A DNA stretch of 64,000 bases from Cryoendolithus antarcticus (lineage: Eukaryota; Ascomycota; Dothideomycetes; Cladosporiales; Cladosporiaceae). Both the position numbers and the translations under genes were made by a program. Of the stretch, positions 50,032 to 62,678 are shown piece by piece. The notes under the pieces were generated by a model. The model was not told where the DNA came from. It worked only from the letters and a program-made list of their open reading frames with translations, and did not search any database. The stretch covers positions 62,001-126,000 of the forward strand of contig NAJO01000051.1 in the NCBI GenBank assembly GCA_002077065.1. The letters run 5' to 3'. Each line of letters begins with the position of its first letter. The stretch's first letter is position 1.

Positions 50032-53000
50032 TCATGAACCGTCAGCACCCGAGTATCCAATCCCTTCCCTCGCCTCATCAGTCAGCCGTCCCCACTCCAA
50101 CAACACGCGGAAGAAATAAATTTCCATATCCTCTCTCCTCAGCACCTTACCCGCCCACTCCCTTCCCACCCTCGCAATCCTCTCACCCTCCACGCCCCGT
50201 CCTTCGACTTCAAACTGCTTACCTCCGATAGTCCCGTTAACCCCAGCGAAATAAGAAAGCGTAGCCCACATCCCCTGCCCCCTCAAGTCCAACGGCACGA
50301 AGTGCACCCAAGCCGTAAGCCGATCGTCCCACCACTCCCGAAACAGCGCAGCTTTGAAGGGAAGGGAATTAGAGTGTAGAAAGGGCAGAAAGCGGCCAGA
50401 GAAGCCTGCGCCGTCGAGATCGAGCAAATACTTATAGCCCCAATGTCCCTGGAACTCTGATGGCTCGGCCAAGGGCGCGAATTCGGCGGCTTGGTCGTCG
50501 CAGTCGCGGCCGCCGCAGCGGAGGATGGAAGAGACGAATTGCAGATCTACTGGTAGGAGGGAGCGCACTACAGAGGGCGAGAGGGACGTATACTGCAGCC
50601 TCGGGGCGGTGTTCGTCGATCTCGAGGTGGGTAGGAGGATGACTTGGGAGGGGGAGGTGGTGTTCGGGGAGGCGAGGTGCACGAAACGTTGACGCGTCAT
50701 GCCTTTCCATTGCCCACTTCCAGGGGAGACACCTTCGGACGTCGCGCCGCGCCAGAAGAGCGTAGAGTTCTTGGCCGTCCAGTCTGGGTCTGGGTACTCT
50801 TCCGAGGGGCGGTAGACGGCTTTGTCCATGTAGTTCCATGCGGAAGGGTAGAGGATATCGTTGAAGCCGTGAGCTTTGCTCTGGGAGAATATCGGCAGCA
50901 GGTTATGCGAGCCTTTGAACGCTGCGGGGGACAGGTAGAGGCCATGTAGATTTGCGACGTCGGGTTGATGGCAGATGTTGCCTGCGAGAGTCCAATTTGA
51001 GAGGGCTACGCCGTGGGAGTGAGGGGCTGTGCAGGTCGTGCAGAGGGAGGCGAGGGACCAGCGATTCTGTGAGCGGGCTGGAGATGAAGGAGGGCAGCCG
51101 ACGCTGCCGAAGGGTTGGAAGGTACGTTGGAAGCTGAGTTCTGTCAAGGGCGTGGTGTCTATGGGTTCTTCAGGGATAGGAGTCCACTGGGGGGCGCGGT
51201 CGGGGCTGAAGGCGTTGCGGACGGATGCTGTGGGATCACCGAAGGCGCGACCTTGCGCACGCATGGGCTCGACGTCTTCGTACTGTACTGCCACGCGGCA
51301 CTCGTCATTGAGGTTGAATGCAAGGTCCATATCTGGAAGCCACTCAGCGAAGAATCCGATCATCTCCACGAGTCCATCGAGCATCCAGCGATGTGTCGGC
51401 ACGACGTGTGGACTGATCTCGACCTTGCCATCGCGGATACTGAGGCCAGCAGCATCGTTCCATGGATTCGAGATCAACTCCCACGTCCGCTCTCGGATCT
51501 CCTCAGGCGATAGCGCGTAAAATGGCAGAAGATCTCGCTCTATGCTGTCGAAATCGTCGATGATGATGGAAGTCCGTTCTGTAGCATACTCATACCACTT
51601 ATCAAAGTTGGGAGGCGGCTGCCTGTTGTAGCGCGTGCGATAGTTGTGTACGGCCTCGCCGAGAGACGTACTTATTGTGCTCTGGTTAATGTAAGCATCG
51701 TGCTGCTGTTTAGCTTCCCAGATAAGTAGGTCGATCGGGTGGTATGTGACAAGCGAGTCATGCTGCACCCATAAAGCGGAGCGCAGGCCGAACAGTAGCA
51801 GGATTACAAGGTAGACCAGAGTCGGGACTCTTGTGAATGTAGCGTTCGACGAGCTTCGGTCCGAAGCATTGGACATAGCCTCGACGTTGAAGTAGACGAT
51901 AAGAGCGAACATCGCCAAAGATACCGCAGCGAAGCCATAGCCGGCGCTTCGAATTGGGAAAGGATGTGGGTGAGCCCATGCGAATGCCGTTGTAGATGTC
52001 ACTGTCGCGGTGAATAACAACAAAAGAGTCGTAGTCGTCGTGCCTATGTGATAGATCTGCGCCTGTCAGTTTGCGTTGAGGGTTAGCCGGGATGCAAACG
52101 ACTCACACAAAACAGTGTACAGGTAGCAGTAAAGCAGAAAAGTAAGTCAAGCTTCACAGCGCTCCACGTGAAAGCGCTGGGGATCGTGATGATCGCGCGC
52201 CTGATCTCTGGATCGGAAACGAAGTAGTATGCGCCGCCGCAAATGCTAAGGAGGGTGGCCGCGATCTGGGTACTTGTCAATTTGGAGGCGCGTAATGCAG
52301 CCTTTCCGAAGCCACTCACCATCACAGCCCAGCCCACGGTAGATAACCATAATGCCGCACTTCGCTCACTCTTTCCTTCATCTTGCCGGATCAAGAACCC
52401 AAGACAGAAGAGAAGCACGACATCAAGAGCCGTACCACCAATATGTTGAAGCAAGGGTACGGACCAGGTGTACGGTAAAGTTGTCGCACAAATGTATGAA
52501 GTAGCAGGACTGTCCGTCGTGGTGATCGCAATTGTGCAAGCGACACATATCGCGCCAACAAGTAGCACATATCGATATGGAGCCTGCAGTATGCGCCTTG
52601 TCCAGATGCCGTACAGTGTCAGAGTATGCTCGCCACTCGTGTCCGATGATGTTCCTCTCCTTGACCCAAGATAATCCGAAATCGCGAAGAGCAGAGGAAT
52701 TGCCACCTCCCACGTCCTCCGCGCGCACTGTATATTCGCGAAGACCTGCTGCAGGACCGCGACTCTCGCGCAAATGACAGCGACGAGTAGCAGGAATACA
52801 AGCCTTAGCTTCCGCAAGCTCGATGGGTATGACACCTCCTGGAAACCTGGTGTCGAGGAGCGCCGTCGCGGTGTCTGCTCCGCGTGCACATCTTGTAATG
52901 GCACAGCATTGTAGCCCTGGCCGTTGCGCGCCTGCTGATCGGCTCGTGGGAGGAAGCGGCTTAGGAGCAGGAGCGTGGCAGCGAGGCTGAAGAGTGCGAC

Positions 53001-53601: not shown

Positions 53602-56600
53602 CTATTGCATACCTGCGTTCCGCCCTTGATTGCGGCTGTTAAACTCGCCATCAGTAGGCGCGGTAGTCCCGTCAAGCTGAGCCTGACGCCAAGAAGCCTC
53701 ATCCCTCATCGCTCTCAAAACCAGATCGAGGTCATGCGCCTCTTGAACAGTCCAGGCTGGGTGCGGAGGCGGTGCGATGCCGTTCGCCACCGCTCTGTTG
53801 ACCTCAAGGCGGTCGATCAGGTCTGCAAGGAGCTTCTTGTGAAGATGCTTACCTCTGTGGCGTGGAAATCGTGCTGTGCGATTTGGGTGCTCGAGTGAGT
53901 GCGCGGCAGCTCCATCGACGACGTGAGGCTCGATAAGAACAACTATGAAGATACGCTTCGCGAGATCTGTGTTGTTCAGCGCATCTAGTCGGCGTACCCA
54001 TGCGAAGAACCCATCCCACCACAGGCGGCTGCCCCAAGCCGGGATGCCAACAGATAGACCGGCGAAGCCATTGAGTAGCATATGGATCTCGTGCGGCCGA
54101 TTGGCCTGGACTGGCTGCTGATATCCGAAGACTTCATGAAAGAGGCCGACTAGCCGAATAACCACGGGGTTGTTAAGGTTACCAGTAGTAGTTGGAACGG
54201 CCCTAGCGCCGTGGCGGGCAATTGCAAACCGGGCCCTGCGCATCTGGAGATATCCGCCGTTAGGGGCGGTTGGACGAACACCTTCAGGGAAATGTACGAC
54301 TTGTATGTTAGCGTTCGGTCCAGCGTTCAGCATGTTGTCGTAGTGATGGAGCGTCGCCTGCTGAGCGATTGCGATTACTGCCATTGCAGCCGGCGCTCGA
54401 GTACTTGAGCTGCGTGCAAGGGAGATGGTCAGGAAGTGCTGGTTGTCTGGAATCGGATCGATCACCGCCAAGTACGGGTTAGGAGCGGCAGTATGCGGCA
54501 TGTTCCATCTCTCGAAGTACTGCTCACGCACTTCGGGTGTAGCGGCGCTCGCAAAGAATTCCTTCGGTCTAAAATGATCGTCCCATGTGCATCCACTCGT
54601 GTTGTCGTCGTAGAGCTCTGCAGCTTCACACTCAGGGCATGGCGACTGCCACACTATGCCAGTGCATGCACGATTCTTCTCACGACAAGGGATACAACCC
54701 TGTCGTATTTGCTCGTTGACTTTCTTTTGGCTTCTCCCTGCGTTGTGCGTAATCCTCTTGTCGACCTCATCCACGGTCTCATCGGCAAGGTTTTCATTGA
54801 TTGCTTGAACTCCTCGACCTGGGCCTTTGTATTCATCCGCATCTACACGCATAGCCCACGAAAGTACATCATAGTAGCCCTCTCCTGCGCTGTCGTCCAT
54901 GCCCTCGAAGTGGTTGTACTCACCAAGGCCGAGTGCGGTTCTGTTATGGATCCAAAGCGCAACCTGTCGGGGTTGTGTTTGGCCAAGGTCGGGATCCGGA
55001 TCGTTCACGAAGCGTGCATAAGCTGAGACGGGTTGCTCTATGCCCTTGGCTTGACGCCAGTACCCACTACGGACAACGCCGAGTTGATAGTGCATTGGGA
55101 CGTGCGGGTTGTTGCCATTGCTGTACAGCAAAGTAAGGATAGCTTGTAGCTGCATTGCGTCAAGGTCCATTACCTGTGTGAGCTCCGTGTATGTATCGTT
55201 GAACAGCACGTCATTTCCTTCGGTAAGAAGAGATCCGTACTGCTGTCTGATGTAGGCATCATACGCTGGAGTCGGAGTAGCAGTATCACCACGTCGGTAC
55301 TGCCGGGTCGGGTCCCAATCTGAGAAAAGCAGATGCATCATCTCAACGTAAGTGATGCGAGGTGGCGCGTCCGACCAGAGACTGGTGTTGACCGTATACA
55401 GGCGGCGTTGCATAAACTCGAAGGAACGCTCAAGCGCTAACACACCACACAGCAAGCCCCTCGAAGAGGTAGGCTGTGGGACTATCCTACCATCGTGGAG
55501 CAGGTAGTATAGCGAGTTCAGGGCAGTCTGCGTGCCGGTGATACCGACGACTTCACCAAGTCGGACCTGACGAAGCTGCGAGGGGTTGTGGTGAACAGGT
55601 CTGCAGAGCTGGTATGCTTGCCTATGCTTGGGCTTGAAGCCTAGGCTGAGAGTCAAGTCGTCCACCAGGATGCTCGCAGCAGTCGACCGTGCTGCATCAC
55701 CCATGACTTCCCAGAATTCCTCATTGCTGCCATGATCTTGTGACAAGAGCCATCTGATCATGCGGGTCCTCTCATCCTCGTACTCATCGTCCACTGCTCC
55801 AGCCAGAGTGCTACCGACTGTCTGAAGATCGTCGACGTCCAGCATGCCCAAGTCGCCGTCCGTGCCAGTCGCCAGTAGCCGGTCCTCTTCGAACTCTTTC
55901 GACAATCTCGACTGCTCCGCCCTGCTGAATGCGTTCCAACCACGACTCTCTGCGAGAGTGAAGAGTGCGCTATGGCCCATGTAATGATATCTTGAGTGGA
56001 GAGCCCGTGGTATGGGTAGGAGGCCACGTGCAGCCTCCTCGCGCTGTGCGATGTGTATCAGAGCATCTTTAGTGATAGCAACGACGGATTTTATTGCACA
56101 CTTCTCGGCGATCTCGGCTTTGGTGAGCTCCCAATAGTTGCAGCCACGAGTATAGCGTTTGTCGATCTTTACAGGGCCGGAAAGCAAGCTTGGAAAATAG
56201 CGCTCAATAATGGATAGACTCTGCTGTCCAACGTCATCTTGATCTTGGTCGTCTTCGTTGTCGTCTGTAGAAGCAAGTCAGCCTTTTTACAAGCAAGTGA
56301 TGAAACATCTGCAGGGGTGTCGGTTTGCAAGTGCATAACTCTCGGCCCAGCACACTTGAAATTGAAGGCCGTTGACAGCCAGCAATTGTGCGACGCAGGA
56401 GTATGTAAGCAGGATGCGCGGGACAGTAGGGCGTATGTTGAATGGAATATGCACTATTGAACTCACCGGTCACCAAGCTGATGCCTGCAGTGTTCAGGTC
56501 AGAGAAAAGCTCATTGCCGATAGTCCCCACCCAGCGATCTTTTGAGCATTGCTTGCAGTGTGGGCGGTATCCGGTTGCATCCAACTTGGACTTTACGAAA

Positions 56601-57571
56601 TCACTCAAAGGTTTCTCCTGGCGGCAGGCACCAATGCACAATACTTTTCCCTGCTGTAGCAGTCTTGTGGCATTTCCCGCGCACGCCAAACATATTTGCT
56701 TTGCCATCTCAAACTTGTCTGACATCTTACGCTTCCTGCACCGCCGGCAAAGGCGCGGCCCAGTTCGCAAGGGTGGTGCAGACTGCGCGGACGGTGAATG
56801 CGGAGTGTGTGGCGCGGATTGCGTGATCTGTCCAGTGGAGGAAGGCTGTGGCGGCTGCGGGACTTGTGAAGTGTGCGGGACTTGCGGGGGGCCGGATGAC
56901 TGAGAAGTCTGTGGGAGCTGTAGCGGCTGTGTTGACTGAGATTGATGCCCAGTGGGACCCGTCTGTCCAGTGGTGGAGGTCTGCAGAACTTGTGAGAGCT
57001 CCGACAAGTCGCGCGAGCCGTGAGGAATCTCATTCTCTGGAGGCAACAGTTGACTCGACGCCGTGGGCTGCGAGGAGTAAGAAAGCTGAGGCAATGGTAC
57101 AGAGTATCCGGGATACCCGGGATAGCTGCCCTGCGGTTTTAGTGGTGGGTTCGGAGGCTGCGAGGGCTGCTGAGCAGAGGACGGGTATCCCGGGTACCCG
57201 GGATAGTTGCCCTGCGGTTGTAGTGGTGGGTTCAGAGGCTGCGAGGGCTGCTGAGCAGAGGACGGGTATCCAGGGTAGGCGGGGTGTCCGGTGTCTGCGA
57301 GGTATGCAGAGTATGGGATGTACGAAGTATGGGTAGGCTGAGTGGGTGGTGGAAAGTATGGTTGATATGAGGTGCCTTGGGACTGGAGACGTGGGGTGCC
57401 TTGAGACTGGAGACGTGGAGTTGGCTTCCAGGCGCCCTCACACTGCTTGCATGTGTACCTGAGACCGTCGGGTGACCGAGAGTTTACAATGAAGGACAGC
57501 GGAGGTTTGTTGATCAGGCAGGTGTCGCAGAGCTTCGTGTAACCAGGCGGGTAGTCCTCGTTCGGTGCCAT
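53602..57571 (-). CDS. Large unfamiliar zinc-binding protein, possible cysteine-protease-like core
   Basis: I recognise no named family for the whole protein. Exons are 57571-56467 and 56264-53602 with a 202-nt intron (GTGAGT...CTACAG), 1255 aa. The N-terminal third has three CxxC...CxxC treble-clef or ribbon-like units (Cys 15/18/41/44, 275/278/294/297, 312/316/339/342). The first and third share the pattern C-x2-4-C-x3-KPLSxF...DxxGxxxxCKQC. Between them lies a long Gln/Pro/Ser linker with tandem repeats. An Asp/Glu/Gln acid patch follows the splice junction. Exon 2 carries LLCGVLALERS (Cys about 641) and, 180 residues later, EYNHFEGM (His about 820), an arrangement like OTU/papain-type proteases. 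It also has an internal six-Cys cluster C-x2-C-x6-C-x8-C-x2-C-x12-C (892-927) that fits fungal Zn2Cys6. The protease idea is inference. Confidence 0.7.
57113..57274. repeat. 81-bp tandem repeat (2 copies) in the coding region
   Basis: Two nearly identical 81-bp units encode 27-residue repeats of the type YPGYPGYPSSAQQPSQP plus NPPLQPQGN. A partial third copy (SYPGYPGY) follows. The copies differ at a few positions. A 24-bp repeat encoding TPRLQSQG lies just beyond, near 57370-57420. Confidence 0.85.
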
Positions 57572-58903: not shown

Positions 58904-59468
58904 GCTACCTAGTGAGGGACAAGCGTCGCTCCTCAGAAGCAGGCAGCAATGATGTACCGAGCTGCCCCAACGAATCGGTCAAAGTAACGGTATGTGGTGG
59001 CAGAAGCAACGTCAGTGCGACAGACGAGGTGTGTGTGGCGATTGAAGAAGGATGCAGGTGAGGTCTGAGGGTGTTGGCGTGTCCAGCTGCGGTACTCGGC
59101 CTACTGTACAGCCCGAGGCAAATTCTATTCCGTGTAGATTGCAGTAGCTACAATACACATATCAAAACCTCATGCTCATTTCAAAGTACATAATCTCTGT
59201 CGCAAATACTATTTCGCCTCATCAACTCCCCATTACTCCTTCTGACTGTCTCACTCGAACTCGAAAGCGTTCAGCCATATCGGGAATCGAATTCTAGCGC
59301 AATTCGTGTCTAGCGGACTGCGCCAAACGAAACTCGGCCGACACTGCAGACATCAGATACTTATATCCGCTCTCGATCATTGTCATATGATATAGAGCTC
59401 ATCGTGCAGCGACGAGGTGCTCGTGGTGGTGGTGTACGGAGAGAGGCTGAAGTTGAGCAGACGCCATC
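58904..59468. promoter_or_regulatory. Intergenic region upstream of KRE33
   Basis: 565 bp between two plus-strand genes, holding a terminator and the KRE33 promoter. No gene or clear motif was recognised. Confidence 0.4.
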
Positions 59469-62400
59469 ATGGTGAAGAAAGCGATCGACGCCCGCATACC
59501 AGCGCTTATCCGCAATGGCATGCAAGAGAAGAAGCGCAGTTTCTTCGTTGTTGTCGGTGATCGACAGAAAGATGTCATAGTCAACTTGTATCACATCCTA
59601 CTCAATCTCGACATCAAGCTTAACAAATCCGTACTATGGGCGTACAAGAATAAGCTACTGGGCTTCTCGTCACATCGGCAAAAGCGAGAGAAGAAGATCA
59701 AGAAGGAGATCAAGCGAGGAATACGGGAGGTCGACAATGAGGATCCATTCGAGCTGTTCGTCAGCACGCAGAACATTCGATATGTGTACTACAAGGAGAC
59801 CGAGAAGATCCTCGGGAACACGTACGGAATGTGCATACTGCAGGACTTCGAGGCCATCACGCCGAATTTGCTTGCGCGGACGATAGAGACGGTCGAAGGT
59901 GGCGGTCTAGTATTGCTGCTTCTCAAGGGCATGAATAGTCTGAAGCAGCTATACACAATGTCCATGGACGTGCATTCGAGATATCGGACGGAGGCACACG
60001 ACGATGTCACAGCCCGCTTCAACGAGCGATTCATCCTGTCGCTTGGTAGCTGCGATTCATGTCTAGTGCTGGACGACGAGATGAATGTCCTTCCAATCTC
60101 GGGCGGAAAGACTATCATGGCAAAGCCTCCGCCAGAGGACGACACTAAAACGCCTGCACAGGTCGAGCTTGAGGGCATCAAAGAGAGCCTGGCAGAGACA
60201 CAACCTGTTGGGTCGCTAGTAAAGGTAGCGCGGACTGTTGATCAAGCGAAAGCACTCCTCACATTCGTCGAGGCGATCGCCGAGAAGACACTAGCCAGCA
60301 CAGTCACTCTCACAGCAGCACGAGGTCGAGGAAAGTCCGCTGCTCTGGGTGTAGCGATAGCTGCAGCCGTAGCCCATGGATACAGTAACATCTTCATCAC
60401 ATCTCCATCACCCGAAAATCTCAAGACGCTGTTCGAGTTCGTGTTCAAGGGCTTTGATGCGCTTGGCTACCTCGATCACGTCGACTACACCATCATCCAG
60501 TCCACGAACCCGGATTTCAACAAGGCGATCGTGCGCGTCAATGTGCACCGACAACACAGGCAGACGATACAATACATACAACCACAGGATGCATACACAC
60601 TGGGCCAGGCTGAGCTACTGGTGATTGATGAGGCCGCCGCAATACCTCTTCCTCTGGTACGAAAGCTGATGGGGCCATATCTCGTTTTCATGGCCTCGAC
60701 GATCAATGGGTACGAGGGTACTGGACGATCTCTATCTCTCAAGCTCATACAGCAGCTCCGAGAGCAGTCGAGAGGCGGCAGCAAAGCAAACGGCGCGGAG
60801 AAGATCGCAGATCGATCGAATGGCACTAAGCAGCCCGGTGGCGAGCTCGTTGCGCGGTCATCGAGGTCACTACGCGAGATCACACTGTCCGAGCCCATTC
60901 GATATGCACAAGGCGATGGTGTGGAGAAGTGGCTGAACAAGCTACTATGTCTCGATGCTACATTGCCACGATCATTGGTTTCACACGGCACACCACATCC
61001 GTCACAATGCGAACTACTACAAGTCAATCGCGACACACTCTTCTCGTTCCACCCAGTCAGCGAGAAATTCTTGCAGACCATGATGGCGCTCTACGTAGCT
61101 TCGCACTACAAGAACAGCCCGAACGACCTCCAGCTCATGTCAGATGCACCTGCACATCAGCTGTTCGTGCTCGTGGCACCCATAGATGAATCCGCCGGCC
61201 GACTCCCCGAGATCCTCTGCGTGCTCCAGCTAGCACTCGAAGGCCAAATCAGCCGCGAAAGCGTACTGAACAGCCTCTCCCGCGGTCAACGAGCAGGGGG
61301 CGACCTCATACCCTGGCTAGTAAGCCAACAATTCCAAGACTCTGACTTCGCCGGCCTCAGCGGCGCACGTATAGTCCGCATCGCCACGAATCCCGATTAC
61401 GCAAGTATGGGCTACGGCTCGCGCGCCATCGAGCTTCTGACCGAGTTCTACGAAGGCAAGCATATTAGCCTCTCCGAGGACACTCTACCCGGCAGTACTG
61501 AAGCCTCCATGCCCCGCGTCACAGACGCCGAGCTCGAGTCCCCATCCCTCCTCACAGACAACGTCAAAATCCGCGATATAAACGCCATGCCACCTCTCTT
61601 CACGCGCCTCTCAGAACGCCGTCCAGCACAGCTAGACTACCTGGGCGTGTCCTACGGCCTCACACAACCTCTCCACAAATTCTGGAAACGCGCTGGTTTT
61701 GTGCCTGTCTACCTGCGTCAGACTGCCAACGAGCTCACGGGCGAGCACACAGCTGTGATGCTCAAGACTCTTTCTTCCGCCAGTCAAGACCCAAGCTGGC
61801 TCGGTGCCTACGCAGCAGACTTCCATCGGCGATTCCTGAACTTGCTTTCCTACCAGTTCCGCGCGTTCTCCAGCTCTCAAGCTTTAGCCTTGAACGACAG
61901 CGCTGCCGCCGGTATAGCCCTAATTCCCGCTTCGGAGCGCGCAAAACCTCTGGATAAGGCAGCGCTAGACGAGCTCTTCACGCCCTTCGACCTCAAGCGC
62001 CTAGCAAGCTACGCGGATAACATGCTAGACTACCACGTTATCCTCGACCTGCTCCCCACGCTGGCTCTTCTCTACTTCACCGGCCGGATCCGCGATTCAA
62101 ATGGCATTCGTCTCTCGTCCCTGCAGCAAGCGCTCTTAGCAGCCATTGGCTTACAGCGGAAGAGCATCGAAGACGTGGAAAAGGAATTCGGCGTTGTGGC
62201 TGGTCAGCTGCTGGCGCAATTCATCAAAGTCGTGCGCAAGATCTCCGCGCACTTCAAATCCATCCAAGAAACCACCATATCAGCTACCCTCCCATCCGCC
62301 CCTGCAGCGACAAACCCAGACACCCTGCCCGACGCTTCGGATCCAGCCGCTGTCTCCGCCGATCTCGCCGCTGACCTCGCATCCGGCGCTAAAGAGTTCC

Positions 62401-62678
62401 ACGCAAACGAAGCCGAGCGCGCGAGAGCGAGGGAGATGATTGACGCGCTGCCATTGGAGAGCTTTGGAGGTACAGTGAACGACGATGCGGAATGGGAGGC
62501 TGCGGAGAAGCAAATTGCTAAGGGTGGCAAAGGCCGCAGCAGTACTGTGGCTGTCAAAAGCGGCAGAACGGAGGAGAAGGCGAAGCGTAAAGCGGGAGAG
62601 GCGCTGGAAGCTGCAAGGAAGGAGGCGGAGCAGTTGGAAGGTGGGGGTAGGGGAAAGAGAAGTAAGAAGAGTAGGTAG
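59469..62678 (+). CDS. KRE33: RNA cytidine acetyltransferase (NAT10/Kre33/TmcA family)
   Basis: Uses acetyl-CoA and ATP to place N4-acetylcytidine in 18S rRNA and in Leu/Ser tRNAs, and is needed for small-subunit maturation in the nucleolus. It is a single exon of 1069 aa. MVKKAIDARIPALIRNG is the usual N-terminus. The DUF1726/TmcA N-domain contains DPFELFVSTQNIRYVYYKE. The helicase-like ATPase has Walker A TAARGRGKSAALG (about residue 275-287) and Walker B ELLVIDEAAAIPLPLV. The GNAT acetyltransferase motif A is RIATNPDYASMGYGSRAIELL (about 640). VSYGLTQPLHKFWKRAGF and the tRNA-binding helical tail follow. The C-terminus is Lys/Arg-rich (GRGKRSKKSR), typical of nucleolar forms. The length and order match the family. 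Confidence 0.97.
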   Translation: MVKKAIDARIPALIRNGMQEKKRSFFVVVGDRQKDVIVNLYHILLNLDIKLNKSVLWAYKNKLLGFSSHRQKREKKIKKEIKRGIREVDNEDPFELFVSTQNIRYVYYKETEKILGNTYGMCILQDFEAITPNLLARTIETVEGGGLVLLLLKGMNSLKQLYTMSMDVHSRYRTEAHDDVTARFNERFILSLGSCDSCLVLDDEMNVLPISGGKTIMAKPPPEDDTKTPAQVELEGIKESLAETQPVGSLVKVARTVDQAKALLTFVEAIAEKTLASTVTLTAARGRGKSAALGVAIAAAVAHGYSNIFITSPSPENLKTLFEFVFKGFDALGYLDHVDYTIIQSTNPDFNKAIVRVNVHRQHRQTIQYIQPQDAYTLGQAELLVIDEAAAIPLPLVRKLMGPYLVFMASTINGYEGTGRSLSLKLIQQLREQSRGGSKANGAEKIADRSNGTKQPGGELVARSSRSLREITLSEPIRYAQGDGVEKWLNKLLCLDATLPRSLVSHGTPHPSQCELLQVNRDTLFSFHPVSEKFLQTMMALYVASHYKNSPNDLQLMSDAPAHQLFVLVAPIDESAGRLPEILCVLQLALEGQISRESVLNSLSRGQRAGGDLIPWLVSQQFQDSDFAGLSGARIVRIATNPDYASMGYGSRAIELLTEFYEGKHISLSEDTLPGSTEASMPRVTDAELESPSLLTDNVKIRDINAMPPLFTRLSERRPAQLDYLGVSYGLTQPLHKFWKRAGFVPVYLRQTANELTGEHTAVMLKTLSSASQDPSWLGAYAADFHRRFLNLLSYQFRAFSSSQALALNDSAAAGIALIPASERAKPLDKAALDELFTPFDLKRLASYADNMLDYHVILDLLPTLALLYFTGRIRDSNGIRLSSLQQALLAAIGLQRKSIEDVEKEFGVVAGQLLAQFIKVVRKISAHFKSIQETTISATLPSAPAATNPDTLPDASDPAAVSADLAADLASGAKEFHANEAERARAREMIDALPLESFGGTVNDDAEWEAAEKQIAKGGKGRSSTVAVKSGRTEEKAKRKAGEALEAARKEAEQLEGGGRGKRSKKSR

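Follow-up and report, generated by a model that had tools for sequence, protein, structure and literature searches.

Phage-type zinc ribbons, a Zn2Cys6 cluster and a candidate papain-like core joined in a fungal protein family

What kind of protein carries zinc ribbons, a fungal zinc cluster and a possibly protease-like core in a single chain? The question is raised by a gene on the minus strand of a 64,000-nucleotide stretch of the Cryoendolithus antarcticus genome (contig NAJO01000051.1, positions 62,001 to 126,000; this whole stretch is referred to as the window, and all positions in Table 1 are counted from its first letter). The initial annotation of the locus, made from the sequence alone, had described a 1255-residue protein with defined Cys and His positions. 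These are borne out by translation, and the spliced product is letter for letter identical to the GenBank hypothetical protein B0A48_16063 (P0001). The annotation further held that no known family combines these elements and guessed at a zinc-guided, possibly ubiquitin-related protease. As far as searched the domain combination is new: ribbons and Zn2Cys6 cluster occur together as one family in none of Pfam, NCBIfam and PHROGs, although most of the pieces are of known kinds. The best explanation we can offer is a lineage-specific fungal protein family, which with a probability of roughly 40% represents a nucleic-acid-tethered papain-like cysteine hydrolase.

A six-frame search of the source genome (46,965,068 bases, 149 contigs) yielded seven family loci, denoted C97 (the window gene), C139, C58, C66, C90, C13 and C35. 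When P0006, the C35 protein and exon 1 were used as queries, one additional marginal and partial match emerged (C108, E 6.1e-4, one stop) and otherwise no new locus. From three protein-database searches we obtained eight proteins, all labelled hypothetical in their sources, three from C. antarcticus, three from Oleoguttula sp. CCFEE 5521 and two from Rachicladosporium sp. CCFEE 5018. These searches depend on 5-residue words common to query and target and are limited in length; in two of the three, scores were computed just for the candidates with the most words in common, and one missed P0006 even though P0006 is a row of its query, so that relatives may exist in other organisms. A literature search for three locus tags of the family found no mention of them. 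Grouped by best identity, the members make up five sets (C97/C66/P0007, C139/C58/P0003, C90/C13/P0005, C35/P0008 and P0006). The loci C97-C66, C139-C58 and C90-C13 form pairs whose DNA matches extend past the gene, and the OTU genes of the same genome likewise occur in pairs, from which we infer that the source genome is duplicated. Rachicladosporium antarcticum is, we assume, the same organism as C. antarcticus. The Antarctic-rock habitat of the latter is taken from its name and from an excerpt of a paper on the former (PMC11412873).

Several members are irregular. The C66 paralogue (G000:C66:690432-693246; L004, L006) is broken: it carries in-frame stops, and about 0.5 kb of its interior (691963-692490), corresponding to residues 831-1008 and including the Zn2Cys6 part, is inverted relative to the rest. 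The gene model of P0007 from Rachicladosporium does not include the region of the Cys block; because the 93% identical C66 piece carries this region, the model probably misses coding sequence. P0005 from Oleoguttula sp. CCFEE 5521 shares 89.9% identity with the C90 protein (L005), whose identity to the two parts of its own C13 partner is 73.5% and 90.8%. Oleoguttula and Cryoendolithus are classified in different orders, and this closer-than-expected likeness would point to a mislabelled assembly or to transfer.

The N-terminal CxxC units are, at the level of sequence profiles, relatives of the phage endonuclease VII-family zinc ribbon. In a PHROGs scan of five proteins phrog_1035 (endonuclease VII) matched the window protein (E 1.2e-11), P0002 (3.4e-11), P0003 (1.1e-19) and P0005 (0.0082) and gave no match in P0006, while phrog_5558 (Lar-like) reached 7.9e-25 in P0003. 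Shared with the ribbons of PHROG 1035, 5558 and 2633 are the CxxC-x(n)-CxxC units and the KPxxxF and GY..KCKxC motifs. None of nine reversed or Cys-fixed shuffled controls matched these three profiles (best control E 0.061), which indicates that the order of residues between the cysteines matters; one control touched phrog_6611 at E 0.26, a profile that also matches two family members. The excerpt of PMC3765158 describes the [CxxC]2 unit as a structural zinc ribbon in HNH endonucleases related to endonuclease VII. Unlike the phage proteins, however, the family shows no Pfam match to an endonuclease VII/HNH or other nuclease domain in the proteins scanned, in none of the four matched proteins does the best phrog_1035 stretch extend beyond profile position 110 of 271, and the ribbons are joined to other domains. 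The three units claimed for the window protein are present (Cys 15/18/41/44, 275/278/294/297 and 312/316/339/342), but the third opens with CxxxC, and among the five proteins counted by pattern their number varies from three here to six in P0002, four each in P0003 and P0005 and none in P0006, so that a triple ribbon does not define the family. A direct tblastn search against phage records gave no match and does not tell phage ancestry from an old shared ribbon, either of which may be the origin of the units. The linker behind the first ribbon is repeat-rich as proposed, with an 81-nt tandem unit (2.1 copies, 57104-57277) and a 24-nt unit (2.0 copies, 57371-57418).

The six-Cys cluster is, judged by its sequence, a genuine relative of the fungal Zn2Cys6 module, in agreement with the earlier assignment. 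Its cysteines (892/895/902/911/914/927, spacing 2-6-8-2-12) are kept in all ten proteins that cover the region (nine of nine covering rows of alignment A1, plus P0008), and a Zn2Cys6-like spacing arose in 0 of 20000 whole-protein shuffles. Profile-profile comparison with hhalign of seven family members against 28 clusters from the same genome gave a probability of 93.6, compared with 30.6 for the best of 60 column shuffles; the 28 references are those with a Zn2Cys6 pattern among 30 fetched loci, the two loci without the pattern having been dropped. Zn2Cys6 proteins (HAP1/CYP1, LEU3, PUT3) made up eight of the 12 matches at E≤10 in a PDB profile search, none of them significant alone (best E 0.064). 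Pfam PF00172 gave no match in the window protein and sub-threshold matches in three of the ten A1 rows at E≤10 (best 17.7 bits against a gathering score of 21, best E 0.0038), P0008 scored 10.9 bits, and every match stayed below the gathering score. Like PF00172 clusters, the family has the pattern C-x2-C-x6-C-x8/9-C-x2-C, an R after the second Cys in most members and C-[TD]-G after the third. It differs in its position within the chain, in the last spacing, which is long in the window protein (12) and in P0002-P0004 (13) and 6-8 in P0005, P0006 and P0008, and in a weaker basic region: by eye, the basic residues between the second and third Cys (REKNRA, REQNRQ, RDDNLR) are thinner than in the mostly R/K-rich rows of the other clusters of the genome. 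A position away from the N-terminus is unusual yet known, since the clusters of PacX (A. nidulans), Ume6 and Czf1 sit towards the C-terminus; for PacX and Ume6 the same excerpt, unlike what we see here, describes no zinc ribbons or hydrolase-like core (PMC4832277).

In the central domain the initial annotation had singled out a Cys/His pair, LLCGVLAL...NHFEG, with an OTU- or papain-like spacing of about 180 residues. The pair is conserved and lies 179 residues apart in the window protein, but the spacing is not fixed (171 in P0006, 173 in P0005, and 141 in P0003, whose gene model omits some of the domain). His820 is kept in 11 of 11 sequences (nine of nine covering rows of A1, the broken C66 copy and P0008) and Cys641 in nine of ten (eight of nine covering rows of A1, plus C66); P0007 covers neither residue and P0008 begins after Cys641. 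Column 641 is the only one with Cys in most of the seven rows of alignment A3 (six of seven), in the context GLLCG, GWLCG or ELLTG, and within the 322-residue domain the neighbourhoods of Cys641 and His820 rank in the top 3.7% and 7.8% of conservation.

According to the excerpt of PMC10318531, the papain-like superfamily has its Cys at the N terminus of a core helix and its His on a following antiparallel strand. Two AlphaFold2 (AF2) runs (721 and 322 residues) concur on helices after Cys641 and both begin a helix, at low confidence, five residues before it, whereas the strand with His820 appears in the longer run only. A papain/OTU-like fold is hinted at by the structure comparison, in which 27 VIA rows, all weak matches, were listed. 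Of these, 14 start at model residues 87-106 and reach at least 252, and all 14 are papain-fold peptidases: rice OTUB1 (6kbe, identified from the excerpt of PMC9363410), whose row stops at 252, short of His820, together with twelve bleomycin hydrolase entries and PepW. The alignments to 2e03 and 2e01 open with the pair 106-72, which, if continued without gap, places Cys641 (model residue 107) on residue 73 of yeast bleomycin hydrolase, the mutated Cys named in the title of 3gcb. The same placement follows from 2dzz, 3gcb and 1cb5, while 7v5t, 2cb5, 7v5l and 2dzy are one or two residues off, and the rows of 7xf9, 4k7c, 1gcb and 2e00 start too far upstream to place Cys641. Resemblance to the bleomycin hydrolase/papain-like C1 peptidases extends over the Cys-to-His part in the twelve rows and PepW. 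With OTU deubiquitinases (PF02338, PF10275) the domain shares the order of Cys block, middle block and late His block, and a block scan with OTU proteins of the same genome ranked His820 first of 313 and Cys641 third of 309 positions. It differs from them in spacing (103-141 in six OTU loci of the genome) and in the Cys box. The OTU catalytic box is D-x-x-C-[LF]; D-x-x-C is seen in four of the six OTU loci (L021, L022, L025, L026), whereas the seven rows of A3 contain no such box and have Gly638 three residues before Cys641. Comparison of the core with these OTU proteins in hhalign gave 0.2 or less, with shallow profiles.

Several results limit the hydrolase reading: the C35 paralogue has Thr at the position of Cys641, the core models are poor (mean predicted local distance difference test score, pLDDT, 45-46) and have no significant Foldseek match, and none of the four Pfam families matched by ten rows at E≤10 is OTU. 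The C35 copy (L008:2722-3642) has an open 884-aa frame and lacks the HYQLGV strand in addition to the Cys, and is likely a pseudoenzyme; its relative P0008 retains a similar strand, HYYYQLAVI.

In a working model of the hydrolase, the N-terminal ribbons and the Zn2Cys6 module would hold or steer the protein, presumably by binding nucleic acid. The central domain (about 560-850) would be papain-like, with Cys641 near a helix start as nucleophile and His820 in a late strand as base, and might cleave a peptide or isopeptide bond; the C-terminal domain perhaps recognises the substrate, and the C35 paralogue, having lost its nucleophile, would be inactive. The earlier interpretation is partly supported: the zinc modules hold up as profile relatives of known ones, no OTU profile matches, and the enzyme itself is no more than a reasonable guess. 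That the family is a new, Pfam-unmatched class of papain-like cysteine peptidases with zinc modules of their own, acting in a few rock fungi as DNA- or chromatin-directed isopeptidases or DNA-protein-crosslink proteases, we consider unlikely.

A non-enzymatic regulator or scaffold is a realistic possibility. In this case the family would be Zn2Cys6 proteins of an unusual kind, using their extra zinc ribbons to bind nucleic acid or partners, with structural or ligand-binding central and C-terminal domains and a buried, structural Cys641. The hhalign relationship and the known zinc clusters off the N-terminus (excerpt of PMC4832277) agree with it, as do the retention of the six Cys in ten of ten proteins against nine of ten for Cys641, and a C35 paralogue that keeps an open frame without Cys641 and has a 94.9% identical relative in P0008 (over 572 residues). 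Yet conservation peaks around LLCG and NHF, as active sites often show, and the thin basic stretch of the cluster is unlike classical DNA-binding members. It is improbable that the enzyme is instead the C-terminal domain and the Cys/His pair incidental. There GxSVG might act as the elbow of a serine hydrolase, the preceding strand with RHG as its oxyanion site and a later Glu as its acid. The domain is strongly conserved, the motifs RxSS, ARHG, GxSVG and WGS and the later Glu are invariant in nine of nine rows of alignment A4, and dN/dS on the domain is 0.17 and 0.20 in two paralogue pairs, but residues 936-1255 have no Pfam match in ten A1 members and no PDB sequence match, AF2 gives a low-confidence helix where the pre-elbow strand is expected, and by eye a matching catalytic His is not invariant. 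Least probable in our view is a domesticated or decaying piece of a mobile or selfish element that brought phage-type ribbons into fungi. The ribbons, the several, partly broken copies and the few species with relatives would suit it; against this, the members scanned against Pfam showed no transposase, nuclease or integrase, six of the seven loci are arranged as three pairs whose DNA matches continue past the gene, as a duplicated genome and not transposition predicts, the recognised neighbours are host genes, and dN/dS is low.

The ratio of nonsynonymous to synonymous substitution (dN/dS, NG86) was determined for two paralogue pairs, neither including the C35 copy, and the core, zinc and C-terminal parts look constrained (0.12-0.25). 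Between C139 and C58 the region upstream of the core gives 0.47, the core itself 0.25, the stretch that runs from the zinc cluster as far as the C-terminal domain 0.25 and that domain 0.20; between C90 and C13 the values are 0.67 upstream, 0.22 in the core, 0.12 in the zinc stretch and 0.17 in the C-terminal domain. Low ratios of C97 to C139 and C58 mean little because dS is saturated (>1.8 or not computable). Synonymous divergence between C139 and C58 (L002, L003) falls from a value of 0.59 for the core to 0.057 over the final 278 codons, which resembles a gene-conversion tract.

If the hydrolase reading is correct, the family would represent a protease or deubiquitinase that is naturally targeted to DNA and assembled from modules of different ancestry, with the Cys-to-Thr paralogue as a built-in control. 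Even without catalysis, it presents tandemly multiplied phage endonuclease VII-type ribbons joined to Zn2Cys6 in fungal proteins, and it provides homologues, domain limits and a short residue list for bench work.

Table 1. Positions of the gene, its parts and its neighbours in the window
Feature	Position	Strand	Remark
Whole gene, 1255 residues	53602..57571	-	two exons; GenBank hypothetical protein B0A48_16063 (P0001)
Exons	57571-56467 and 56264-53602	-	
Intron, 202 nt, GT...CAG	56265..56466	-	spliced product matches P0001
Zinc ribbon 1, residues 15-44, CDTC...CKQC	57440..57529	-	phrog_30859 E 0.0034, best stretch residues 12-51
Low-complexity P/Q/S/Y linker, residues 46-270	56762..57436	-	81-nt and 24-nt tandem repeats
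Zinc ribbon 2, residues 275-297, CRRC...CLAC	56681..56749	-	phrog_1035 E 1.2e-11, best stretch residues 270-347
Zinc ribbon 3, residues 312-342, CIGAC...CKQC	56546..56638	-	
Core domain, residues 535-856, Cys641 and His820	54802..55767	-	candidate papain-like cysteine hydrolase
Conserved block 636-645, SRGLLCGVLA	55435..55464	-	includes Cys641 (codon 55447-55449)
Conserved block 739-746, MQLQAILT	55132..55155	-	
Stretch 808-822, HNRTALGLGEYNHFE	54904..54948	-	invariant His808 and His820 (codon 54910-54912)
Zn2Cys6 cluster, residues 892-927	54589..54696	-	
C-terminal domain, residues 936-1255	53605..54564	-	conserved RxSS, ARHG, GxSVG, WGS
NAT10/TmcA-type RNA cytidine acetyltransferase	59457-62678	+	ordinary neighbour
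GT90-family glycosyltransferase-like protein	50035-52065	-	

The C-terminal domain, with its invariant RHG and GxSVG, is possibly a second uncharacterised enzyme domain. Near the other copies we found genes for fatty acid synthase beta, PP2C, an HLH/DUF2014 protein, an AAA-domain protein and Gti1/Pac2, these being the five recognised among 10 scanned of 54 listed long frames, the other five of which match nothing.
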